Assembly: GCA_003557545.1 (NCBI GenBank)
Contig: PWOD01000155.1
Location: forward strand, 1-10,988
Length of the DNA stretch: 10,988 nucleotides
Direction: 5' to 3'
From: a bacterium
Lineage (GTDB): Bacteria; T1Sed10-126
Part shown: positions 1,675-10,988 of the stretch, one piece after another
Numbering within the stretch: the first letter of the stretch is position 1
How the letters are laid out: every line of letters starts with the position of its first letter
Made by a program: the position numbers and the translations under genes
Notes under the pieces: generated by a model
Databases searched by the model: none
Told to the model about the DNA's origin: nothing
What the model saw: the letters and a program-made list of their open reading frames with translations, nothing else

Positions 1675-4600
1675 TTGAGAAAATTTAGTTGTAGTTTATG
1701 GTTGGTCTGGTTAGTGATATTTCTAGGCTGGATTCCAGTGGTATTGCAAGCTTTTCCCGGATCAGGTGAGGGTACAGAATCTGATCCGTACCTGGTTGAC
1801 ACCTGGTATGCACTTGATGCAGTTCGTGAGGATCTTTCAGCGGTTTATCTCCTGACGGAAGATCTCACCAAAGATGCGCCGGGGTATGATCAATTGGCCG
1901 GTCCAGCTGCTGATTCTAATCTAGGTTGGAATCCCCTTGGTAGCCGGCAAACTCCTTTCACCGGAACTTTTGAAGGATTAGCCGGTAAGCGGATCGAGGG
2001 TCTGCAGATTAACCGGCCAGATGTTAATTATCTGGGTCTGTTTTCTTATCTTGAATCCTCTGCGGTGATAACCAATCTGCAGCTTGTTGATCTACAAATT
2101 GTCGGTCAGGATTATGTCGGTGGCCTTGCTGGATACAGTCGTGCAGAGATTGATGGTTTACAGGTTAGTGGGGAGGTAACTGGTGCGGGAATTTACGTTG
2201 GTGGATTAATCGGTTTTAGTGCCGGAGAGGGTAGAATCCGAAATTCTTCCAGTGCAGTTTATGTGGAGGGTGATGAGTCGGTTGGCGGCCTGGCCGGTAG
2301 AAATACTGGTGTACTTGCCAGTAGTTTTTCCACCGGTGCTGTTAGCGGTGGTTATCGAGTCGGAGGACTGGTCGGATTTAATATGTTGGGACAGATTGAT
2401 GATTGTTACGCACGTGTAGAGGTGACGGGGCTAGAAAATGTTGGTGGTCTTGTGGGTGACAATCGAAATACTATCCGCAATTGTTTTGCTACCGGAGCAG
2501 TAACTGGTGAGACAGATGTCGGAGGCCTTGTTGGATTTGGTCGGCATGGTGGTTCAGTTGCCAGTAGTTTTTGGGATCTGGATAGTTCAGGTCTGGCAGA
2601 AAGTTTTGGAGGCAGCGGCCAATCGACGGTCGCTATGCAGGATAGACAGTTGTATGATGATGCAGACTGGGATTTAAAGGGGGCCGCTGTGGGCTACAAT
2701 GACGGTTATCCCTTTTTAGCTGGCGAACCCGCCACCTGGTTAATTGAAGAGCCAGAGCTTCCTGTTAAATTAGAGATTCAGGGAGAAGGAACCGTTCTGG
2801 TTGACGGAGAGACCTATATTCAACCGTTTGAGGTTGAGGCTGGAACAACTCTGGAACTCCAGGCAATCCCCGATGACAACTATTTTTTTGCCGGCTGGCA
2901 GGGTGATCTTGGAGGAACAGTGCCTCAGCAGCAGCTGGTGGTTGATTATGATCGTAATGTTACTGTCCTTTTTCAGCCAGAAACCCGGCAGTTAACGGTT
3001 GATATAGTGGGGACAGGGGAAGTTCTTGTTAATGCTGAAACTTACGTTGAACCGGTTGATTTAAAGCTGGGAGAAACCGTTGAAATTATCGCCATACCCC
3101 AGCAGCATAACCAATTTATTGAATGGGATGGAGCAGTCAGCAGCAGTGATACAAAGTTGATTTTAACCGTTGATCAAACTCTCGAGCTTACCGCTTATTT
3201 TGCTACTGACACTTATAGTCTGGAGGTTTTTCAGCAGGGTCAGGGGTCGGTCCTGGTCGATGGAACCCCCTACATGTCACCCCGTACTTATAGCCCCGGA
3301 GATACTGTTAGGCTGACTGCGGAGCCTGCCGATAAATGGCGGTTTGAAGGCTGGGAAGAGGGGTATTCCGGGACTGACACAACGGTTGAGATCACAGTCA
3401 ACTCAGATCTTCAGGTAACTGCCCGGTTTGTCAGTGATAGTTATCAGTTAACCATTGACCTGTCAGGTGATGGTGTCGTTCTGATAAACGGTGAGACTTA
3501 CAGCCAACCGGCTGTTTTTTTTTCAGGCGACACGGTTATTCTTGAGGCAAAACCGGAAAAAAACTGGGAATTTGCTGGCTGGTCAGGTGACCTAAAAGAT
3601 ACGAATTTGATAGTTGAATTAACTGTTGAATCAGAACTTGCTCTGGAGGCAGAATTCCAACCAAAAACTTATCAATTAACCGTAGAAATCGCCGGCGTGG
3701 GTGAGGTTAATGTGGATCAGCAGAGTTATACCATGCCCCTGTTATTCGGGCCCGGGGAAACTGTTGAGTTGACTGCTATTCCAGGGGTTAACTGGCGATT
3801 TGAAGAGTGGACCGGAGATCTTACCGGAAGTGATACCATAGCCGTTCTGACCGTTGTTTCGGATCATACAGTTACTGCTAAATTTGCCAGTGATAGCTAT
3901 CTTCTTACCGTTGAAATTGAAGGTAATGGAAACGTTCTGGTTGACGGTGATAGTTATACTGAACCGGTTGCTGTGGGAGCCGACGATACGGTTATTTTGA
4001 CTGCAATTTCTGATCCGGAAAATCATTTTCGTGGTTGGCAGGGGGATCTGCTGTCGAGTGATACTAAAGCTGAACTGCAGGTCGGATTCACCAGCCATGT
4101 TACCGCTGTTTTTAGTCGTGACAGCTATTTGTTAACAGCAGATCTGGAGGGCAAAGGGAAGTTGCTGGTGGACGGTGAAACCTACGTGGAGCCGCTCGAG
4201 TTGACAGCCTGGGAGGAAATTGAGCTGCAGGCCATAGCGGATCCGTACTGGCAGTTTGAGGGCTGGCAGGGAGCAATTTCTGGCAGTGATACAGTTATCC
4301 ATCTGATACTCGATAGTGACAAATCAGTCGCGGCTGAGTTTGTTCGTAAAACTGGCTGGTTGACTCTGGAAATTGATGGGCGCGGTGAGATTCAGGTTGA
4401 CGGTGATCATTATAGTGAACCGTTGGAGCTTCCCCTGGGAGAGACGGTTAGTCTGGAGGCGCTGCCTGATAGTTACTGGGAGTTCGATGAATGGACCGGT
4501 GCCGTTAATGGGACGAACCGTGAGTTGAGTTTTATTTTTATCGAAGACAGTTTACTCACCGCGGTTTTTAGGGGTGATAGTTATAGTCTGCAAATTTCAC

Positions 4601-7600
4601 TCCAGGGGGCCGGTGAGGTACTGGTTGGGGGAACTGCTTATCAGGACGAACTTTTTTTCTCAGCCGGAGACACAGTTCAGCTTGAGGCGGTCAGCCAGCA
4701 GTTTTATTATTTTACCGGCTGGTCGGGCGATCTGAGCGGGGATGATTTAAATGTCGAGCTGCTGTTTGATTCGGATAAAATGGTGATGGCCGGTTTTGCT
4801 CGGGATAGTTATCTGTTGACGATTGATATTCAGGGGATGGGCACGGTCCTGGTGGATGGAGAAACCTATAGTTCGACTCGGTCGATAGCAGCGGGTGACA
4901 GTCTAAGTTTAACTGCGATACCGGGGGAATTATACGAGTTTTCTGGCTGGAGCGGTGATCTGGTCAGCTATCAGGCTGAAAGCCACCTGTTAGTTGATAC
5001 GGATAAACAGGTTACGGCCAATTTTCTTCATGATAGTTTTAATCTTGTCATTGATCTTCAGGGTCGGGGAGAGGTTCTGGTTAATGGTGAGACTTATACT
5101 GAACAGATGATTGTATTTACCGGGCAGGAGTTACTGCTGGAAGCGGTGCCAGGTCAACGGGAAGAATTTCTTGGCTGGCAGGGTGATTTTACCGGGGTTG
5201 AATCCTCAGTTTTATTTACTCCCACAAGGGATAAACAGATAACAGCTGTTTTTAGTCAGAATCTGTTAGAAGGTTCGGGAACATCGACAGATCCTTTTCT
5301 TATATCAGACTGGTATCAACTGGCAGAGATAGAAAATTTCCCCGAGGCTTATTTTAAGTTGATTGCTGATTTAACTGCAGCAACTGAAGGTTATACTGAG
5401 CTGGCTTCCGCGGCGGCAAATGGAAATCGTGGCTGGCAACCGCTTGGACAGAATACCGGTTTTAATGGTCAGTTTGATGGCAATGGATATCAGATACGGG
5501 AGCTTATGATCGATCGACCGGGAGAAAACCAGGTGGGGCTATTTGCTTCCCTGGATGGGGGATGTACGCTGTTAAATTTAACTTTAGTCGATGCTGATAT
5601 AGTTGGTAATAATCAGGTGGGGATTGCAGCTGGTTCGTCGTCCGGATTTCTCCAGGGAATTGTGGCTTCGGGAGTGGTTCGAGGAAATGATTTAGTTGGT
5701 GGTGTGCTGGGTGAACTGCGTGCCGGAAAAGCCCGGGGACTTGCTTCGACCGCTGAGCTGCGGGCCGGTCAAAAGCTTGGAGGGGTTGTTGGTAAAATAA
5801 ATTCTGGCAAGCTTATCAATAGTTATAGCCGGGGAGATTTAACTGGTTTTAATATGGTGGGTGGTCTGGTTGGTCTTAATCAGGGTGAGGTTAACAGTAG
5901 TTATGCCAGCACGAATCTCCAGGGATTTGATCATCTTGGTGGATTAATTGGTAAGGCGATTAACGGGCAGGTGGTAGCTAGTTACTGGGACGAACAAACA
6001 GTCGGGATTGGCGATAGCGCGGGAGGTGTAGGCCTGCAAACCGGACAGTTGAAGAATTATGATAAACTGCTCGGAGCTGGCTGGCAGATCACCGGAACTG
6101 ATGATTATCAGAATCAGGGTTATCCTTATCTACAACTATCAACTGGGGACTGGCTTATAAGTGGAATTTTGCAGGTTATTATCGAAGGACAAGGTGCTGT
6201 TCTCGTGGAGGGGGACACCTATACTACCAGCCTGGTTGTAGTTCCCGGTGAAAAGCTGTCTGTACAGGCAGTTCCCCGGCTTGATTTCGGTGAACGTGAA
6301 CTTTGGCGGTTTTCCCACTGGGAGGGAGATTTAGAGGGAACCGATGCAGATGAACAGCTTTATCTATCGTCGGACCGGCAGGTTACGGCAGTTTTTCAAC
6401 CGCTGTTTGCGGGGGGTGATGGTAGCCCGGAAAATCCGTTTGAAATTGTCGATTGGTACCAGTTGAATAATATCCGGGATTATCCCCAGATGAGTTATCA
6501 ATTAACAGAAAATCTTACCCGAGAAACTCCGGGGTATCAGCAACTGGTTGAACAGACGGCGGATGGAGCTGGCTGGCTGCCGGTGGGGAATCAGCAGCAG
6601 GGCTTTAGCGGCTCCTTTGATGGAACCGGCCGGCGTATTGAGGAGCTTTATATCTACCGTCCGGGAACTGACGGAGTCGGATTGTTTGGTCGGTTAACAG
6701 CAACTGGCCGGATTGAAAACCTTGAACTTGGCGATCTTGATATAACAGGTAATAACCGTGTTGGCGGGTTAGTTGGAATTAATCAGGGTGGGGTTCTGGG
6801 TGTTCAGAACACCGGTCGAATCAGTGGTAGTAATATGGTGGGTGGATTGATCGGTCAGATGATGGATGGTCGTTTAAGTTTTTCCGGCAGTCATGGTCGG
6901 GTGACTGGATTTGAGCAGGTTGGCGGTCTGGTGGGTGAGAGTATCGCCGGCCAGCTGGAGGATCTTTTTGCTACCGGTGAGGTAACAGGGTTTTTTCAAG
7001 TGGGAGGGCTGGTGGGAGAAAACTACAGTCAGATTGACCGAACATATGCCGCTGCGCGGGTGAATGGATTTACTCGTAGTGGAGGATTAATTGGTGCCGG
7101 GGAAGCGGGTAGTGTCAGGGGAAGTTTTTGGGATGTTGAGGCCTCAGGAACTGCCGAATCTGCTGGAGGAACCGGTCTCGATTCATCTGAAATTCGTAAT
7201 CTGGAGCGGTTTGTTGAGGCGGGTTGGGAGATTCAAAAATCCACTGAAAAACGGCAGGCTGGTTATCCCTATCTGACTCCGGGAGGTGAGTCGACCTGGG
7301 CTAAATCACATCTTTTAACGGTGGACATTATTGGCCAGGGTGAGGTTTTTGTGGATTCACAACAATATACAGTACCGGTGGCTATCGCGCTGGGTGAAAC
7401 TGTGCTGCTTGAAGCTTCTGTCAGTGACACCGGACGGTTTAAAGGGTGGTCGGGAGCAGTTAGTGAAACAGTTGAATCATTTGAATTTATCCCCGGCGAG
7501 TCGGCCATGATCACCGCAACTTTTGCAGATCGGGATTATCTTCTGACCGTCGACATAGTTGGCGAGGGAACAGTTTTGGTCGATGGGGATAGCTATAGTG

Positions 7601-8067
7601 CCCCTCTTCCTGTGAAACCCGGTCAGACAGTCACATTATCAGCCAGCCCCGCGTCGGACCATCTGTTTGATGGTTGGTCCGGTGATTTAAATTCCTCCCG
7701 GGTGGTTAGTTCTTTTGAAGTTGAAAAAGATATGGTTGTTCGGGCTGATTTTACTTTGATCAAACCGGGACTTTCTCAGATGCTGGTCGGCCCTAATCCC
7801 TTTAGAGGTTCTGATGGAAGGGCAAACACCGGTAATCAACAGATGTCGTTTGCTTTTAATTCACCGTCTGCCGGTGGTCCCTATGAGATCACCATATATA
7901 GTCTTTCCGGTGGTTTGGTTTTTAATCGGACAACTGAAAATGATCCCTATTCTTGGGATTTGCGAAATAATCGGGGCGAAGTTGTTAGTAGTGGGTATTA
8001 CATCTATCAGGTGCACGATCGTTCCAGTGGTGACAGGCAAACTGGAAAACTGGCTATAGTTCGGTAA
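1675..8067 (+). CDS. Giant secreted modular protein: GLUG cassettes, InlB-B-like repeats, FlgD-Ig-like C-terminal domain
   Basis: A 2130-residue exported protein. Residues 1-26 are a signal peptide (hydrophobic LWLVWLVIFLGWIPVVL, cut after LQA). Order after that: GLUG cassette 1 (27-364); eleven InlB-B/Flg_new_2-type repeats (365-1196); GLUG cassette 2 (1197-1497); one repeat (1498-1577); GLUG cassette 3 (1578-1878); two repeats (1879-2029); C-terminal domain (2030-2130). The last domain shows VGPNPF, ITIYSLSGGLVF, WDLRNNRGEVVSSGYYIYQV and a final GKLAIVR, the pattern shared by FlgD Ig-like domains and type IX secretion sorting domains. No catalytic domain, LPXTG or SLH motif is visible. Cysteines are almost absent outside the signal peptide and GLUG parts. 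Related GLUG and B-repeat proteins are large surface adhesins, so an adhesive, matrix or surface-layer role is likely but inferred. The domain layout is directly readable; ligand, attachment and export route are not. No frameshift interrupts it. Confidence 0.9.
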   Translation: MRKFSCSLWLVWLVIFLGWIPVVLQAFPGSGEGTESDPYLVDTWYALDAVREDLSAVYLLTEDLTKDAPGYDQLAGPAADSNLGWNPLGSRQTPFTGTFEGLAGKRIEGLQINRPDVNYLGLFSYLESSAVITNLQLVDLQIVGQDYVGGLAGYSRAEIDGLQVSGEVTGAGIYVGGLIGFSAGEGRIRNSSSAVYVEGDESVGGLAGRNTGVLASSFSTGAVSGGYRVGGLVGFNMLGQIDDCYARVEVTGLENVGGLVGDNRNTIRNCFATGAVTGETDVGGLVGFGRHGGSVASSFWDLDSSGLAESFGGSGQSTVAMQDRQLYDDADWDLKGAAVGYNDGYPFLAGEPATWLIEEPELPVKLEIQGEGTVLVDGETYIQPFEVEAGTTLELQAIPDDNYFFAGWQGDLGGTVPQQQLVVDYDRNVTVLFQPETRQLTVDIVGTGEVLVNAETYVEPVDLKLGETVEIIAIPQQHNQFIEWDGAVSSSDTKLILTVDQTLELTAYFATDTYSLEVFQQGQGSVLVDGTPYMSPRTYSPGDTVRLTAEPADKWRFEGWEEGYSGTDTTVEITVNSDLQVTARFVSDSYQLTIDLSGDGVVLINGETYSQPAVFFSGDTVILEAKPEKNWEFAGWSGDLKDTNLIVELTVESELALEAEFQPKTYQLTVEIAGVGEVNVDQQSYTMPLLFGPGETVELTAIPGVNWRFEEWTGDLTGSDTIAVLTVVSDHTVTAKFASDSYLLTVEIEGNGNVLVDGDSYTEPVAVGADDTVILTAISDPENHFRGWQGDLLSSDTKAELQVGFTSHVTAVFSRDSYLLTADLEGKGKLLVDGETYVEPLELTAWEEIELQAIADPYWQFEGWQGAISGSDTVIHLILDSDKSVAAEFVRKTGWLTLEIDGRGEIQVDGDHYSEPLELPLGETVSLEALPDSYWEFDEWTGAVNGTNRELSFIFIEDSLLTAVFRGDSYSLQISLQGAGEVLVGGTAYQDELFFSAGDTVQLEAVSQQFYYFTGWSGDLSGDDLNVELLFDSDKMVMAGFARDSYLLTIDIQGMGTVLVDGETYSSTRSIAAGDSLSLTAIPGELYEFSGWSGDLVSYQAESHLLVDTDKQVTANFLHDSFNLVIDLQGRGEVLVNGETYTEQMIVFTGQELLLEAVPGQREEFLGWQGDFTGVESSVLFTPTRDKQITAVFSQNLLEGSGTSTDPFLISDWYQLAEIENFPEAYFKLIADLTAATEGYTELASAAANGNRGWQPLGQNTGFNGQFDGNGYQIRELMIDRPGENQVGLFASLDGGCTLLNLTLVDADIVGNNQVGIAAGSSSGFLQGIVASGVVRGNDLVGGVLGELRAGKARGLASTAELRAGQKLGGVVGKINSGKLINSYSRGDLTGFNMVGGLVGLNQGEVNSSYASTNLQGFDHLGGLIGKAINGQVVASYWDEQTVGIGDSAGGVGLQTGQLKNYDKLLGAGWQITGTDDYQNQGYPYLQLSTGDWLISGILQVIIEGQGAVLVEGDTYTTSLVVVPGEKLSVQAVPRLDFGERELWRFSHWEGDLEGTDADEQLYLSSDRQVTAVFQPLFAGGDGSPENPFEIVDWYQLNNIRDYPQMSYQLTENLTRETPGYQQLVEQTADGAGWLPVGNQQQGFSGSFDGTGRRIEELYIYRPGTDGVGLFGRLTATGRIENLELGDLDITGNNRVGGLVGINQGGVLGVQNTGRISGSNMVGGLIGQMMDGRLSFSGSHGRVTGFEQVGGLVGESIAGQLEDLFATGEVTGFFQVGGLVGENYSQIDRTYAAARVNGFTRSGGLIGAGEAGSVRGSFWDVEASGTAESAGGTGLDSSEIRNLERFVEAGWEIQKSTEKRQAGYPYLTPGGESTWAKSHLLTVDIIGQGEVFVDSQQYTVPVAIALGETVLLEASVSDTGRFKGWSGAVSETVESFEFIPGESAMITATFADRDYLLTVDIVGEGTVLVDGDSYSAPLPVKPGQTVTLSASPASDHLFDGWSGDLNSSRVVSSFEVEKDMVVRADFTLIKPGLSQMLVGPNPFRGSDGRANTGNQQMSFAFNSPSAGGPYEITIYSLSGGLVFNRTTENDPYSWDLRNNRGEVVSSGYYIYQVHDRSSGDRQTGKLAIVR
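1753..2766 (+). repeat. GLUG cassette 1 (residues 27-364)
   Basis: An opening cap (GSGEGTESDPYLVDTWYAL, then GW-PLG, FTGTFEG, RPDVNYLGLF) leads into six GLUG repeats. Each is marked by VGGLAG, VGGLIG or VGGLVG followed by an N-x-G-x-I turn and a small-residue A-x-G-x-V-x-G strand. The close is SSFWDLDSSGLAES, then GYPFL. The GLUG repeat stacks as a right-handed beta-solenoid in known proteins. This copy is longer than the other two by about one GLUG unit. Confidence 0.85.
2767..5262 (+). repeat. Array of 11 InlB-B-like repeats with a 76-residue period (residues 365-1196)
   Basis: Repeats begin at residues 365, 439, 513, 589, 665, 741, 817, 893, 969, 1045 and 1121 and end at 1196. From the third repeat on each unit is exactly 76 residues (228 bp). 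The shared pattern is SYxLT, G-x-G-x-VLVDGETY, a G-D/E-T-V step, a hydrophobic-aromatic FxGWxGDL core, a D-T or D-x segment and VTAxF before the next (R/S)DSY. Sequences are diverged between units, so the array is old and not a recent slippage product. This matches the bacterial repeat family found in InlB-like and Flg_new_2 surface proteins. Confidence 0.85.
5263..6165 (+). repeat. GLUG cassette 2 (residues 1197-1497)
   Basis: The same cap as cassette 1 recurs: GSGTSTDPFLISDWYQL, GYTEL, GWQPLG, FNGQFDGNG, RPGENQVGLF. Five GLUG units follow (VGIAAG, VGGVLG, LGGVVG, VGGLVG, LGGLIG), then SYWDEQTVGIGDSAGGVG, a G-W motif and GYPYL. By my boundaries it is 301 residues, the same length as cassette 3. 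The first two GLUG cores are degenerate. Confidence 0.85.
6166..6405 (+). repeat. Single InlB-B-like repeat between GLUG cassettes 2 and 3 (residues 1498-1577)
   Basis: It begins ILQVIIEGQGAVLVEGDTY and ends VTAVFQPL, with the FSHWEGDLEGTD core. It is 80 residues long, because RLDFGERELWRF inserts a few residues before the core, so it departs from the 76-residue unit of the long array. Confidence 0.85.
6406..7308 (+). repeat. GLUG cassette 3 (residues 1578-1878)
   Basis: The cap reads GDGSPENPFEIVDWYQL, GYQQL, GWLPVG, FSGSFDGTG, RPGTDGVGLF. Five GLUG units follow (VGGLVG, VGGLIG, VGGLVG, VGGLVG, SGGLIG), then SFWDVEASGTAESAGGTG, GWEI and GYPYL. The parallel motif order and equal length show that cassettes 2 and 3 arose by duplication of a whole module. 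Confidence 0.85.
7309..7761 (+). repeat. Two final InlB-B-like repeats (residues 1879-2029)
   Basis: The units start HLLTVDIIGQGEVFVD and DYLLTVDIVGEGTVLVDGD and are 75 and 76 residues long. Both keep the G-W-S-G core (FKGWSGAV, FDGWSGDL). They act as a spacer between the last GLUG cassette and the C-terminal domain. Confidence 0.85.
7762..8064 (+). other. C-terminal FlgD-Ig-like / T9SS-CTD-like domain of the giant protein (residues 2030-2130)
   Basis: The domain starts near VGPNPFR, contains MSFAFNSPSAGGPYEITIY, SLSGGLVF, WDLRNNRGE and SGYYIYQV, and ends GKLAIVR. This matches the V-x-PNP ... Y-D-x-x-G-x-x-V ... W-D-G-x-N-x-x-G ... G-x-Y-x-Y pattern of FlgD Ig-like and type IX sorting domains. 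In Bacteroidota such a domain is the export signal; here the role is unknown, since T9SS is not established in Firmicutes. Confidence 0.75.
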
Positions 8068-8926: not shown

Positions 8927-9388
8927 TTGACTAAACCAACCAAATCAATTCTTGTTGCTGTACTCATTTTAGGTTTCGTACTGCTGATTTTTATTGGGAT
9001 TGAGGTAGTTGATCAGCCCCAGGAAAATCTTTATCCGGATGGAACATATCGAGGAATTTTTGCCGATGGTAATGAGATCCAGGTTAATGTTCAGTTTGAA
9101 CTTAAAGATGGTGTGGTTGAATCTACCAGGTTTCGCTGGTTAAGACGTGATGAGGACTACAATCTTGATGCTGAAGAAGAACCCTACAGATCGGTTATTC
9201 AACAGTACAGAGAGGCTTTTGAGTATCTAGAAGGGAAAAATTTACAAAATCATCTGGATGACCTTTATACTCCAGAGAGGATTGTTTCAACTGAAGTAGA
9301 TGGGTATACCGCAGCAACGATACGCAGCCAGAAAATAATTTCGGCCGTGCGAGATGCTCTTAATAGGGGAGTTTATAGTCATAACTGA
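8927..9388 (+). CDS. Membrane-anchored FMN-binding-domain protein (FMN_bind-like)
   Basis: A 153-residue protein. Residues 7-28 (SILVAVLILGFVLLIFIGIEVV) form one membrane anchor after a short basic N-terminus, placing the rest outside the cytoplasm. The domain begins PDGTYRG, continues VNVQFELKDGVV and ends with DGYTAATIRSQKIISAVRDAL. In the FMN_bind family (PF04205, as in RnfG/NqrC subunits) the signature D-x-x-S/T-G-A-T-x-T/S carries FMN joined to the last Thr by ApbE. Here D125-G-Y-T-A-A-T131-I-R-S keeps the aspartate and target Thr131, but Gly is replaced by Ala and the usual Thr after it by Arg. It may be a flavin electron carrier of the periplasmic space, or a divergent member without flavin. 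No ApbE or electron-transfer partner gene lies in the window. It ends 29 bp before the convergent reductase gene. Confidence 0.7.
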   Translation: MTKPTKSILVAVLILGFVLLIFIGIEVVDQPQENLYPDGTYRGIFADGNEIQVNVQFELKDGVVESTRFRWLRRDEDYNLDAEEEPYRSVIQQYREAFEYLEGKNLQNHLDDLYTPERIVSTEVDGYTAATIRSQKIISAVRDALNRGVYSHN

Positions 9389-9417: not shown

Positions 9418-10326
9418 TTAGCCCCAGTCAATATAGGCTCCTTCTCGTAGGTCATTTATTAAACTCAGGGCTGCTTTTGATCCCTCGCCAACTGCTGTGC
9501 TGATTTGCCTGGCTCCGCCAGTACAGTCTCCTGCTGCGTATACCCGGGGAACGCCGGTAGACATCTTTTTGTCCACTGACAGGACACCGTCTTCTATCAT
9601 AACTCCAAGGCTTCTGGCAAAATCTAAACTGCCACTTGTTCCCTGGGCGATCATTAAACCGTCCAATTTTTCCTCTTTTCCATTGATAATGATTCCAGTA
9701 AGAAACTCTTCGCCAACGACCTTATCAAGTTTTTTCTTTTCTATCGGGATCTGTTTTTGCTCCAGCTTTTTTTGTAGACTTTCAGGCATCTGAACTTTTT
9801 TGCCGTTAGTTAAAATCTTGATATTTTCTGTAAATTCATACAATTCCAGTGCCTCTTTGGCCACCAGATCTTCCGATCCAATCAGGCCTACTTTTTTATT
9901 TCTATACAGGGGTGCGTCACACACAACACAGTAGCTTACACCCCGGCCCTCAAATTTTTCGAGCCCTTTAAGCGGGGGTTTTTTATGCTGTATGCCGGTT
10001 GTAATTACCAGGGAGCGGCTGGTGAATTTATCCTCGGCAGTTTCGACTGTGTAATTTTCCCCATTTAGTTTGGTCAGTAAGGCTTTGTTTTCTAAAATTT
10101 TTGCACCAAAGCGTTCCGCCTGCTGGCGACCATTTTTTAGCAGTTGACTGCCTGAAATACCATCAGGGAATCCAAAGTAGTTGTCGATCTCTTCGGTCTT
10201 TTCAAGTAGCTGATTGGGAACATCAAGCACCAGGGTATTTAACCCAGCTCTACTTGTATAGATGGCAGCTGATAAACCTGCCGGACCTCCACCAATTATT
10301 ATTACTTCATAGTCTGTTTCAGACAT
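9418..10326 (-). CDS. Thioredoxin-reductase-like flavoprotein lacking NADPH motifs (FFTR-like)
   Basis: A 302-residue cytoplasmic flavin disulfide reductase of the low-molecular-weight thioredoxin reductase fold. The FAD Rossmann motif is G12-G-G-P-A-G17, the redox disulfide is C133-V-V-C136 followed by Asp137, and the second FAD motif is YAAGDCTGGARQISTAVGEG (Asp267). In NADPH enzymes residues near 150 read GGGNSA or GGGNTA and are followed by an HRRxxxR stretch that holds the NADP phosphate. Here the first is GSEDLV (150-155) and the second is absent (ILTNGKKVQMPES). The established family with this loss is the clostridial ferredoxin-linked flavin thioredoxin reductase (FFTR), so electrons probably come from ferredoxin; a divergent type such as DDTR is the alternative. 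Start ATG at 10326 has AGGAGG 8-9 nt upstream. Its own promoter lies at 10377-10406. The substrate is presumably a thioredoxin encoded elsewhere. Confidence 0.85.
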   Translation of the reverse strand: MSETDYEVIIIGGGPAGLSAAIYTSRAGLNTLVLDVPNQLLEKTEEIDNYFGFPDGISGSQLLKNGRQQAERFGAKILENKALLTKLNGENYTVETAEDKFTSRSLVITTGIQHKKPPLKGLEKFEGRGVSYCVVCDAPLYRNKKVGLIGSEDLVAKEALELYEFTENIKILTNGKKVQMPESLQKKLEQKQIPIEKKKLDKVVGEEFLTGIIINGKEEKLDGLMIAQGTSGSLDFARSLGVMIEDGVLSVDKKMSTGVPRVYAAGDCTGGARQISTAVGEGSKAALSLINDLREGAYIDWG

Positions 10327-10376
10327 GATTGTAACCTCCTGTTAAGTTTACTAAAAAATTTGCTGAATTTTACCCA

Positions 10377-10780: not shown

Positions 10781-10988
10781 ATGTTTAGAGAACATACCGA
10801 GCACGGCCAGAATTCCTTATTCGGCCTCCCACAACAACTCTCCGAGACTCGCCTGAAGCGGTTAAAGAACTCCATGGAAGCCACCTTTTACCAGCTGGTG
10901 TTTTGCAAGATTCCTGAGGAAGATTTTGCGGTGCTTTATTCCGACAAAGGAAGTCGCCCAAATACCCCGGTGAACGTTCTTGTGGCAG
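10781..10988 (+). CDS. Transposase N-terminus, IS1182-like (partial, runs off right edge)
   Basis: The frame from ATG at 10781 is open to the window end (69 codons visible). It reads MFREHTEHGQNSLFGLPQQL, then RLKRLKNSMEATFYQLVF, IPEEDFAVLYSDKGSRPNT and PVNVLVA. The segment from FAVLYSDKGSRPNT to PVNVLVA is the typical N-terminal (InsH N-terminal/DUF772) domain of IS1182- and IS5-like DDE transposases. The catalytic DDE residues lie beyond the edge. AAAGGGGA (10766-10773) gives a good ribosome site 7 nt before this ATG; an earlier in-frame ATG at 10763 has no comparable site. Whether the element is intact cannot be judged. Confidence 0.8.
   Translation, partial: MFREHTEHGQNSLFGLPQQLSETRLKRLKNSMEATFYQLVFCKIPEEDFAVLYSDKGSRPNTPVNVLVA

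Follow-up and report, generated by a model that had tools for sequence, protein, structure and literature searches.

A divergent TRi-type thioredoxin reductase in a barely sampled bacterial lineage and its hydrogenase-linked sisters in Aenigmatarchaeota

The question raised by this locus is where a thioredoxin reductase obtains its electrons when its NAD(P)H site has been lost. The gene lies in a window of 10,988 nucleotides (the whole stretch of DNA that was analysed), which is an entire contig of a 2.15 Mb draft genome with 239 contigs and 91.9% completeness. The original prediction had read the protein as an FFTR-like enzyme fed by ferredoxin or a similar donor and not by NADPH. Here we suggest a different family and, more tentatively, a wider reading of the electron source.

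The family in question, TRi, is already known, and the window protein adds a divergent member to it. Its description in 2017 drew on 17 homologues from Clostridia and Deltaproteobacteria and did not settle the reductant (Valette et al. 2017, PMC5627308). All TRi carry TQ/NGK instead of HRRD and a degenerate GGGxxA (PMC5627308). The type member, from Desulfovibrio vulgaris Hildenborough, is the 'isolated' thioredoxin reductase DvTRi (PDB 5NII), which is reduced by neither NADPH nor NADH in vitro; after chemical reduction it reduces Trx1, with which it can also form a mixed disulfide, and its deletion makes the cells sensitive to diamide (PMC5627308).

The gene and its motifs

The following features were located in the window.

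9418..10326, minus strand: TRi-type thioredoxin reductase gene (P0001), 302 aa, assigned from the ORF, Pfam, NCBIfam, tree, profiles and predicted fold
10335..10340, minus strand: ribosome-binding site AGGAGG, 8 bases ahead of the start ATG, read directly
10276..10293, minus strand: first FAD-binding motif GGGPAG, residues 12-17, from the translation
9919..9930, minus strand: redox-active disulfide CVVC, residues 133-136, from the translation
9862..9879, minus strand: residues 150-155, GSEDLV, where the NADPH pyrophosphate motif would read GGGxxA
9796..9810, minus strand: residues 173-177, TNGKK, where the 2'-phosphate motif would read HRRxxxR; corresponds to the TRi signature TQ/NGK
9514..9537, minus strand: second FAD-binding motif AAGDCTGG, residues 264-271
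8927-9388, plus strand: FMN_bind protein, 153 aa, convergent with the reductase gene, with 29 bases between the ends

The similarity of the ORF to thioredoxin reductases is far beyond chance. It matched Pyr_redox_2 in Pfam with an E value of 3e-31 and TIGR01292 over its full length with an E value of 2e-67, and by Pfam and NCBIfam together the product is classed as a low-molecular-weight thioredoxin reductase. The canonical NADPH enzymes (NTR, TrxB) belong to the same superfamily and have the FAD and CxxC chemistry in common with it, but the window protein has lost both NADPH motifs and its TIGR01292 score of 227 bits lies 116 bits under the NCBIfam cut-off for canonical enzymes (343). A canonical NTR identity was therefore ruled out.

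The motif reading of the original prediction was borne out in full by the translation: the CVVC disulfide and both FAD motifs are intact, GGGNxA is replaced by GSEDLV (GSEDLVAKE aligned to GGGxxAxE), and HRRxxxR is absent, with no HRR-like stretch elsewhere in the 302 residues. The coordinates of the prediction were exact as well, and the strand, which it had left out, is minus. In a set of 45 TRi sequences, G12, G14, P15 and G17 of the first FAD motif and both cysteines of CVVC are invariant, while T173 is kept in 91% and G175 in 96%; the TNGK of the window protein (residues 173-176) matches the TQ/NGK of the family. Of the thioredoxin-contact residues of TRi, G-R/K-G is kept as GRG (residues 127-129), but the two Phe that 93% of TRi have after the CxxC are Pro-Leu in the window protein (139-140).

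Placement within the TRi family

When the protein was searched against solved structures, 5NII was the best match (217 bits), and the FFTR structure 6GNA scored 139 bits. For a finer assignment, we used relatives from 80 loci obtained in a scan of public genomes, and built the profiles without the window protein and without its closest relative. The window protein scored 328 bits against the TRi profile, 245 against NTR and 217 against FFTR, and with both motifs masked the scores were 303, 232 and 210 bits, respectively. A leave-one-out control of this assignment gave no error in 42 cases, with margins of at least 114 bits. The margin of the window protein is 83 bits, compared to 129-215 for typical TRi members, which makes it an outlying member of the family.

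The tree that included the archaeal sister sequences placed the window protein inside TRi with a support of 97/94, and TRi had a support of 92-95 in a previous tree that lacked the majority of these sequences. The FFTR clade of the tree holds the clostridial type, without the FFTR of Gloeobacter violaceus. After removal of the motif columns from the alignment, TRi was still nearest to the window protein and the deep branches lost support.

A DvTRi-like fold and domain arrangement was predicted as well. The AlphaFold model, made with only the TRi sequences of the window and the loci as input (pLDDT 91), superposed on 5NII with a Z score of 39.9 (293 residues, 1.5 A), although 5NII may have been included in the AlphaFold training. 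The next best was FFTR 6GNA (Z 28.0, 4.5 A), and the Gloeobacter FFTR was a weaker structural match (Z 27.2, 7.0 A). Most NTR structures differed from the model by about 15-17 A, because their domains are arranged differently. In the Gloeobacter FFTR family, a Trp of the C-terminal tail stacks on the flavin of the partner subunit; the window protein also has a Trp near its C-terminus (residue 301), in a part of our single-chain model that was predicted with low confidence (pLDDT 48). The Gloeobacter enzyme (5J60, 6XTF) does not use NADPH, and its ferredoxin-bound structure has been solved (PMC12796991).

The sequence, the profiles, the tree and the predicted fold thus show that the protein belongs to the TRi family and has lost the NAD(P)H site. 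DvTRi resembles the window protein in fold, unusual domain arrangement, length (about 300 aa), degenerate GGGxxA, T-N/Q-G-K, CxxC and FAD motifs, but the two are only about 38% identical, and it is from the experiments on DvTRi that the window protein would be expected to be inactive with NAD(P)H and to reduce thioredoxin. We are fairly confident that the protein is a member of this family of NAD(P)H-independent FAD thioredoxin reductases and reduces thioredoxin without NAD(P)H. In this respect the original prediction of an enzyme that does not use NAD(P)H is well supported by the TRi membership and by the in vitro behaviour of the type member (PMC5627308), although its FFTR-like identity gave way to TRi in both the tree and the profiles.

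Two other identities deserve weighing. It is very unlikely that the protein is an FFTR, whether like those of clostridia or like that of Gloeobacter. The clostridial FFTR (6GNA, 6GNC, 6GND) is also a low-molecular-weight flavin reductase, neither of the two NAD(P)H motifs is present in it, it gave the second-best structural match, and its Clostridium members have CDAPLY after the CxxC like the window protein; in addition, a joint clade of the window protein with FFTR was not rejected by the AU test (p 0.106), a result that is not decisive. However, the FFTR profile was 111 bits worse than the TRi profile, the FFTR sequences formed a separate clade at 100/100 in every tree, including that with the archaeal sister sequences, the TNG signature of the window protein is absent from the FFTR proteins compared, and the domain arrangement matches 5NII. 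On the profiles and the tree, we rejected FFTR membership. Still less probable is an NADPH thioredoxin reductase that degenerated recently and lost its function or kept a weak use of NADH. The nearest relative among the genomes searched, one of the same family (G001), does encode a canonical NTR (HRRDDLR) and lacks TRi, but the frame in the window is intact, the residues for catalysis, those for FAD and those specific to TRi are kept, and an archaeal homologue with the same motifs is 69% identical. The motif loss is common to homologues in other phyla and is therefore old.

Distribution, gene neighbourhoods and host genome

That archaeal homologue is the closest relative of the window protein (L045 6001-6912), aligned over the full length on a contig labelled Thermoplasmatota. 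Its neighbours look archaeal, and the isolate name of the contig, GSL, perhaps refers to Great Salt Lake. A TRi-like gene was also found on a Haloarcula plasmid (L188 5992-6915; 294 bits with the TRi profile versus 221 with NTR). TRi was reported to be absent from archaea in 2017 (PMC5627308), but this no longer holds if the assignments of these two genes are right. TRi was likely transferred between the domains. Beyond Clostridia and Deltaproteobacteria, our loci add Fibrobacter, Spirochaetota and archaea to its distribution. A scan of viral contigs found no relative.

In the 57 TRi loci (e.g. L053, L083, L097 and L104), a thioredoxin gene was the commonest neighbour, with 11 cases. In nine of these it is the next gene downstream, in the same orientation and no more than 100 bases away. 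A Crp/Fnr-type regulator is nearby in eight of the 57 loci. A simple motif scan found no ferredoxin or flavodoxin gene beside TRi in the relatives. In Treponema saccharophilum, the TRi gene directly follows a glutathione peroxidase gene on plasmid pTS2 (L189 2374-3897), an arrangement in keeping with a function under peroxide or disulfide stress.

In the window, the TRi gene stands alone, with no thioredoxin neighbour and with the convergent FMN_bind gene as its sole neighbour. The FMN_bind protein has an N-terminus like a membrane anchor and a flavinylation motif that looks degenerate (DGYTAATIRS). We rejected it as the electron donor, as the two genes run tail to tail on opposite strands and the FMN_bind product looks membrane-anchored and extracytoplasmic. 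The window also contains a giant repeat protein of 2130 aa with Flg_new_2 and GLUG repeats (1675-8067, plus strand). Its C-terminal end resembles that of a smaller protein in the same genome (L126 12679-15711; PNPF...SGYYIY...GKLAIVR), and this common end may perhaps be a sorting or FlgD-like domain. At the end of the contig, another open frame begins (10781-10988, plus strand); it looked transposase-like by eye and had no Pfam match. Rfam gave no match within the window.

Protein and family-model searches, which gave matches in all of the 14 control genomes, detected no second thioredoxin reductase in the 91.9%-complete draft. TRi is probably the only thioredoxin reductase of the organism, as far as a draft of this completeness, broken into 239 contigs, allows a judgement. 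DvTRi differs in this respect, as it coexists with two NAD(P)H enzymes. TRi was also the single match in four further sampled genomes (G089, G229, G391 and G398), two of which (G089 and G229) belong to a Fibrobacter-like family (f89) and are 99-100% complete. This indicates that TRi can serve alone; the 2017 report had described it as the only reductase for Ruminoclostridium only (PMC5627308). Our finding adds a barely sampled bacterial lineage (its relatives at order, class and phylum level comprised only two genomes, and searches among them brought nothing further) in which TRi is apparently the only thioredoxin reductase, and its donor must then support the whole thioredoxin pool.

Electron donor and the hydrogenase-linked sister lineage

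We know of no TRi member with a proven physiological electron donor. The genome of the window encodes two thioredoxins above the curated cut-off (contigs C160 and C173), and a 2-oxoacid:ferredoxin oxidoreductase operon, followed by an ArsR-type regulator and then a thioredoxin (L126 1180-5269, contig C173; named by eye). In the proposed route, the 2-oxoacid:ferredoxin oxidoreductase would reduce ferredoxin, most likely the low-potential one-electron carrier for TRi; the reduced carrier would pass electrons to the FAD in two steps; the CVVC domain would then swing to the flavin, where its disulfide would become a dithiol; and the dithiol would reduce one of the thioredoxins of the organism. We infer the ferredoxin step and give it about an even chance. 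The iron-sulfur FTR beta subunit was not found in the genome. We rejected a [NiFe] hydrogenase as the donor in this organism, because its large subunit (PF00374) had no match in the draft genome.

It is possible, if on balance doubtful, that the donor of this TRi-type enzyme is not ferredoxin but flavodoxin, another small redox protein or some other carrier. The authors of the DvTRi study judged ferredoxin unlikely, given that DvTRi and the ferredoxin-dependent enzyme of clostridia have different pockets, and put forward flavodoxin instead (PMC5627308). A search of the incomplete genome with PF00258, the only family used here, found no free flavodoxin, however, and the sole Flavodoxin_1 domain is part of a flavodiiron protein. 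Since no free flavodoxin was found and ferredoxin metabolism is present, ferredoxin is mildly favoured. The substrate could also be questioned, and a different target in place of thioredoxin, for instance a thiol peroxidase or a disulfide of low molecular weight, would agree with the lack of a thioredoxin neighbour in the window, with the glutathione peroxidase neighbour in T. saccharophilum and with the Pro-Leu for Phe-Phe change in one thioredoxin-contact element. Nevertheless, this is unlikely, as GRG and CxxC are kept, the relatives are paired with thioredoxin genes, and DvTRi both reduces Trx1 and makes a mixed disulfide with it (PMC5627308).

The flavodiiron protein itself is of the flavorubredoxin type (L157 748-1941, contig C52), and its presence suggests a capacity for O2 or NO detoxification in this organism.

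A further hint at the donor comes from a lineage that is sister to TRi. Five genomes of Aenigmatarchaeota (L062/L158, L159-L162) encode a reductase of this lineage fused to an Oxidored_q6 domain (E 7e-20), the iron-sulfur small subunit of [NiFe] hydrogenases. The fusion proteins are 64-67% identical over the full length. A hydrogenase large-subunit gene, carrying RICGTC and DPCxxCxxH, directly follows the fusion with a short overlap.

L062 5989-8773: fusion and large-subunit locus

In the tree, the Aenigmatarchaeota reductases are sister to TRi (86/76), and both together with two further sequences are supported by 92/87. They resemble TRi in lacking the HRR motif and in their intact CxxC (L062, L158-L163), and differ in their link to [NiFe]-hydrogenase subunits, either within one fused protein or as adjacent genes; no such hydrogenase gene was found in the genome of the window.

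The fusion to a hydrogenase small subunit suggests that a reductase of this clade is built for taking electrons from an iron-sulfur cluster. It backs an iron-sulfur donor for TRi without proving one, and the fused protein is a candidate H2-driven thioredoxin reductase. We therefore suggest, tentatively and at somewhat less than an even chance, that TRi together with its sister lineage makes up a single large clade taking electrons directly from iron-sulfur proteins, with a built-in [NiFe] hydrogenase driving thioredoxin reduction by H2 in Aenigmatarchaeota and with free ferredoxin as the sole route in the bacterium of the window. If this reading of the whole clade is true, it would settle the question of the TRi donor; with an iron-sulfur donor, thiol repair in these cells would run on low-potential electrons and not on NADPH. 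The hydrogenase fusion provides a direct way to test such a donor. As we found no description of a hydrogenase-thioredoxin reductase fusion in the open-access literature, the fused sister lineage may be new. An unfused version was found in one genome (G524; L163 1495-3706), where the reductase, the large subunit and the small subunit are separate neighbouring genes: the reductase lies beside the large subunit, and the small subunit about 1.8 kb off on the same contig and strand.
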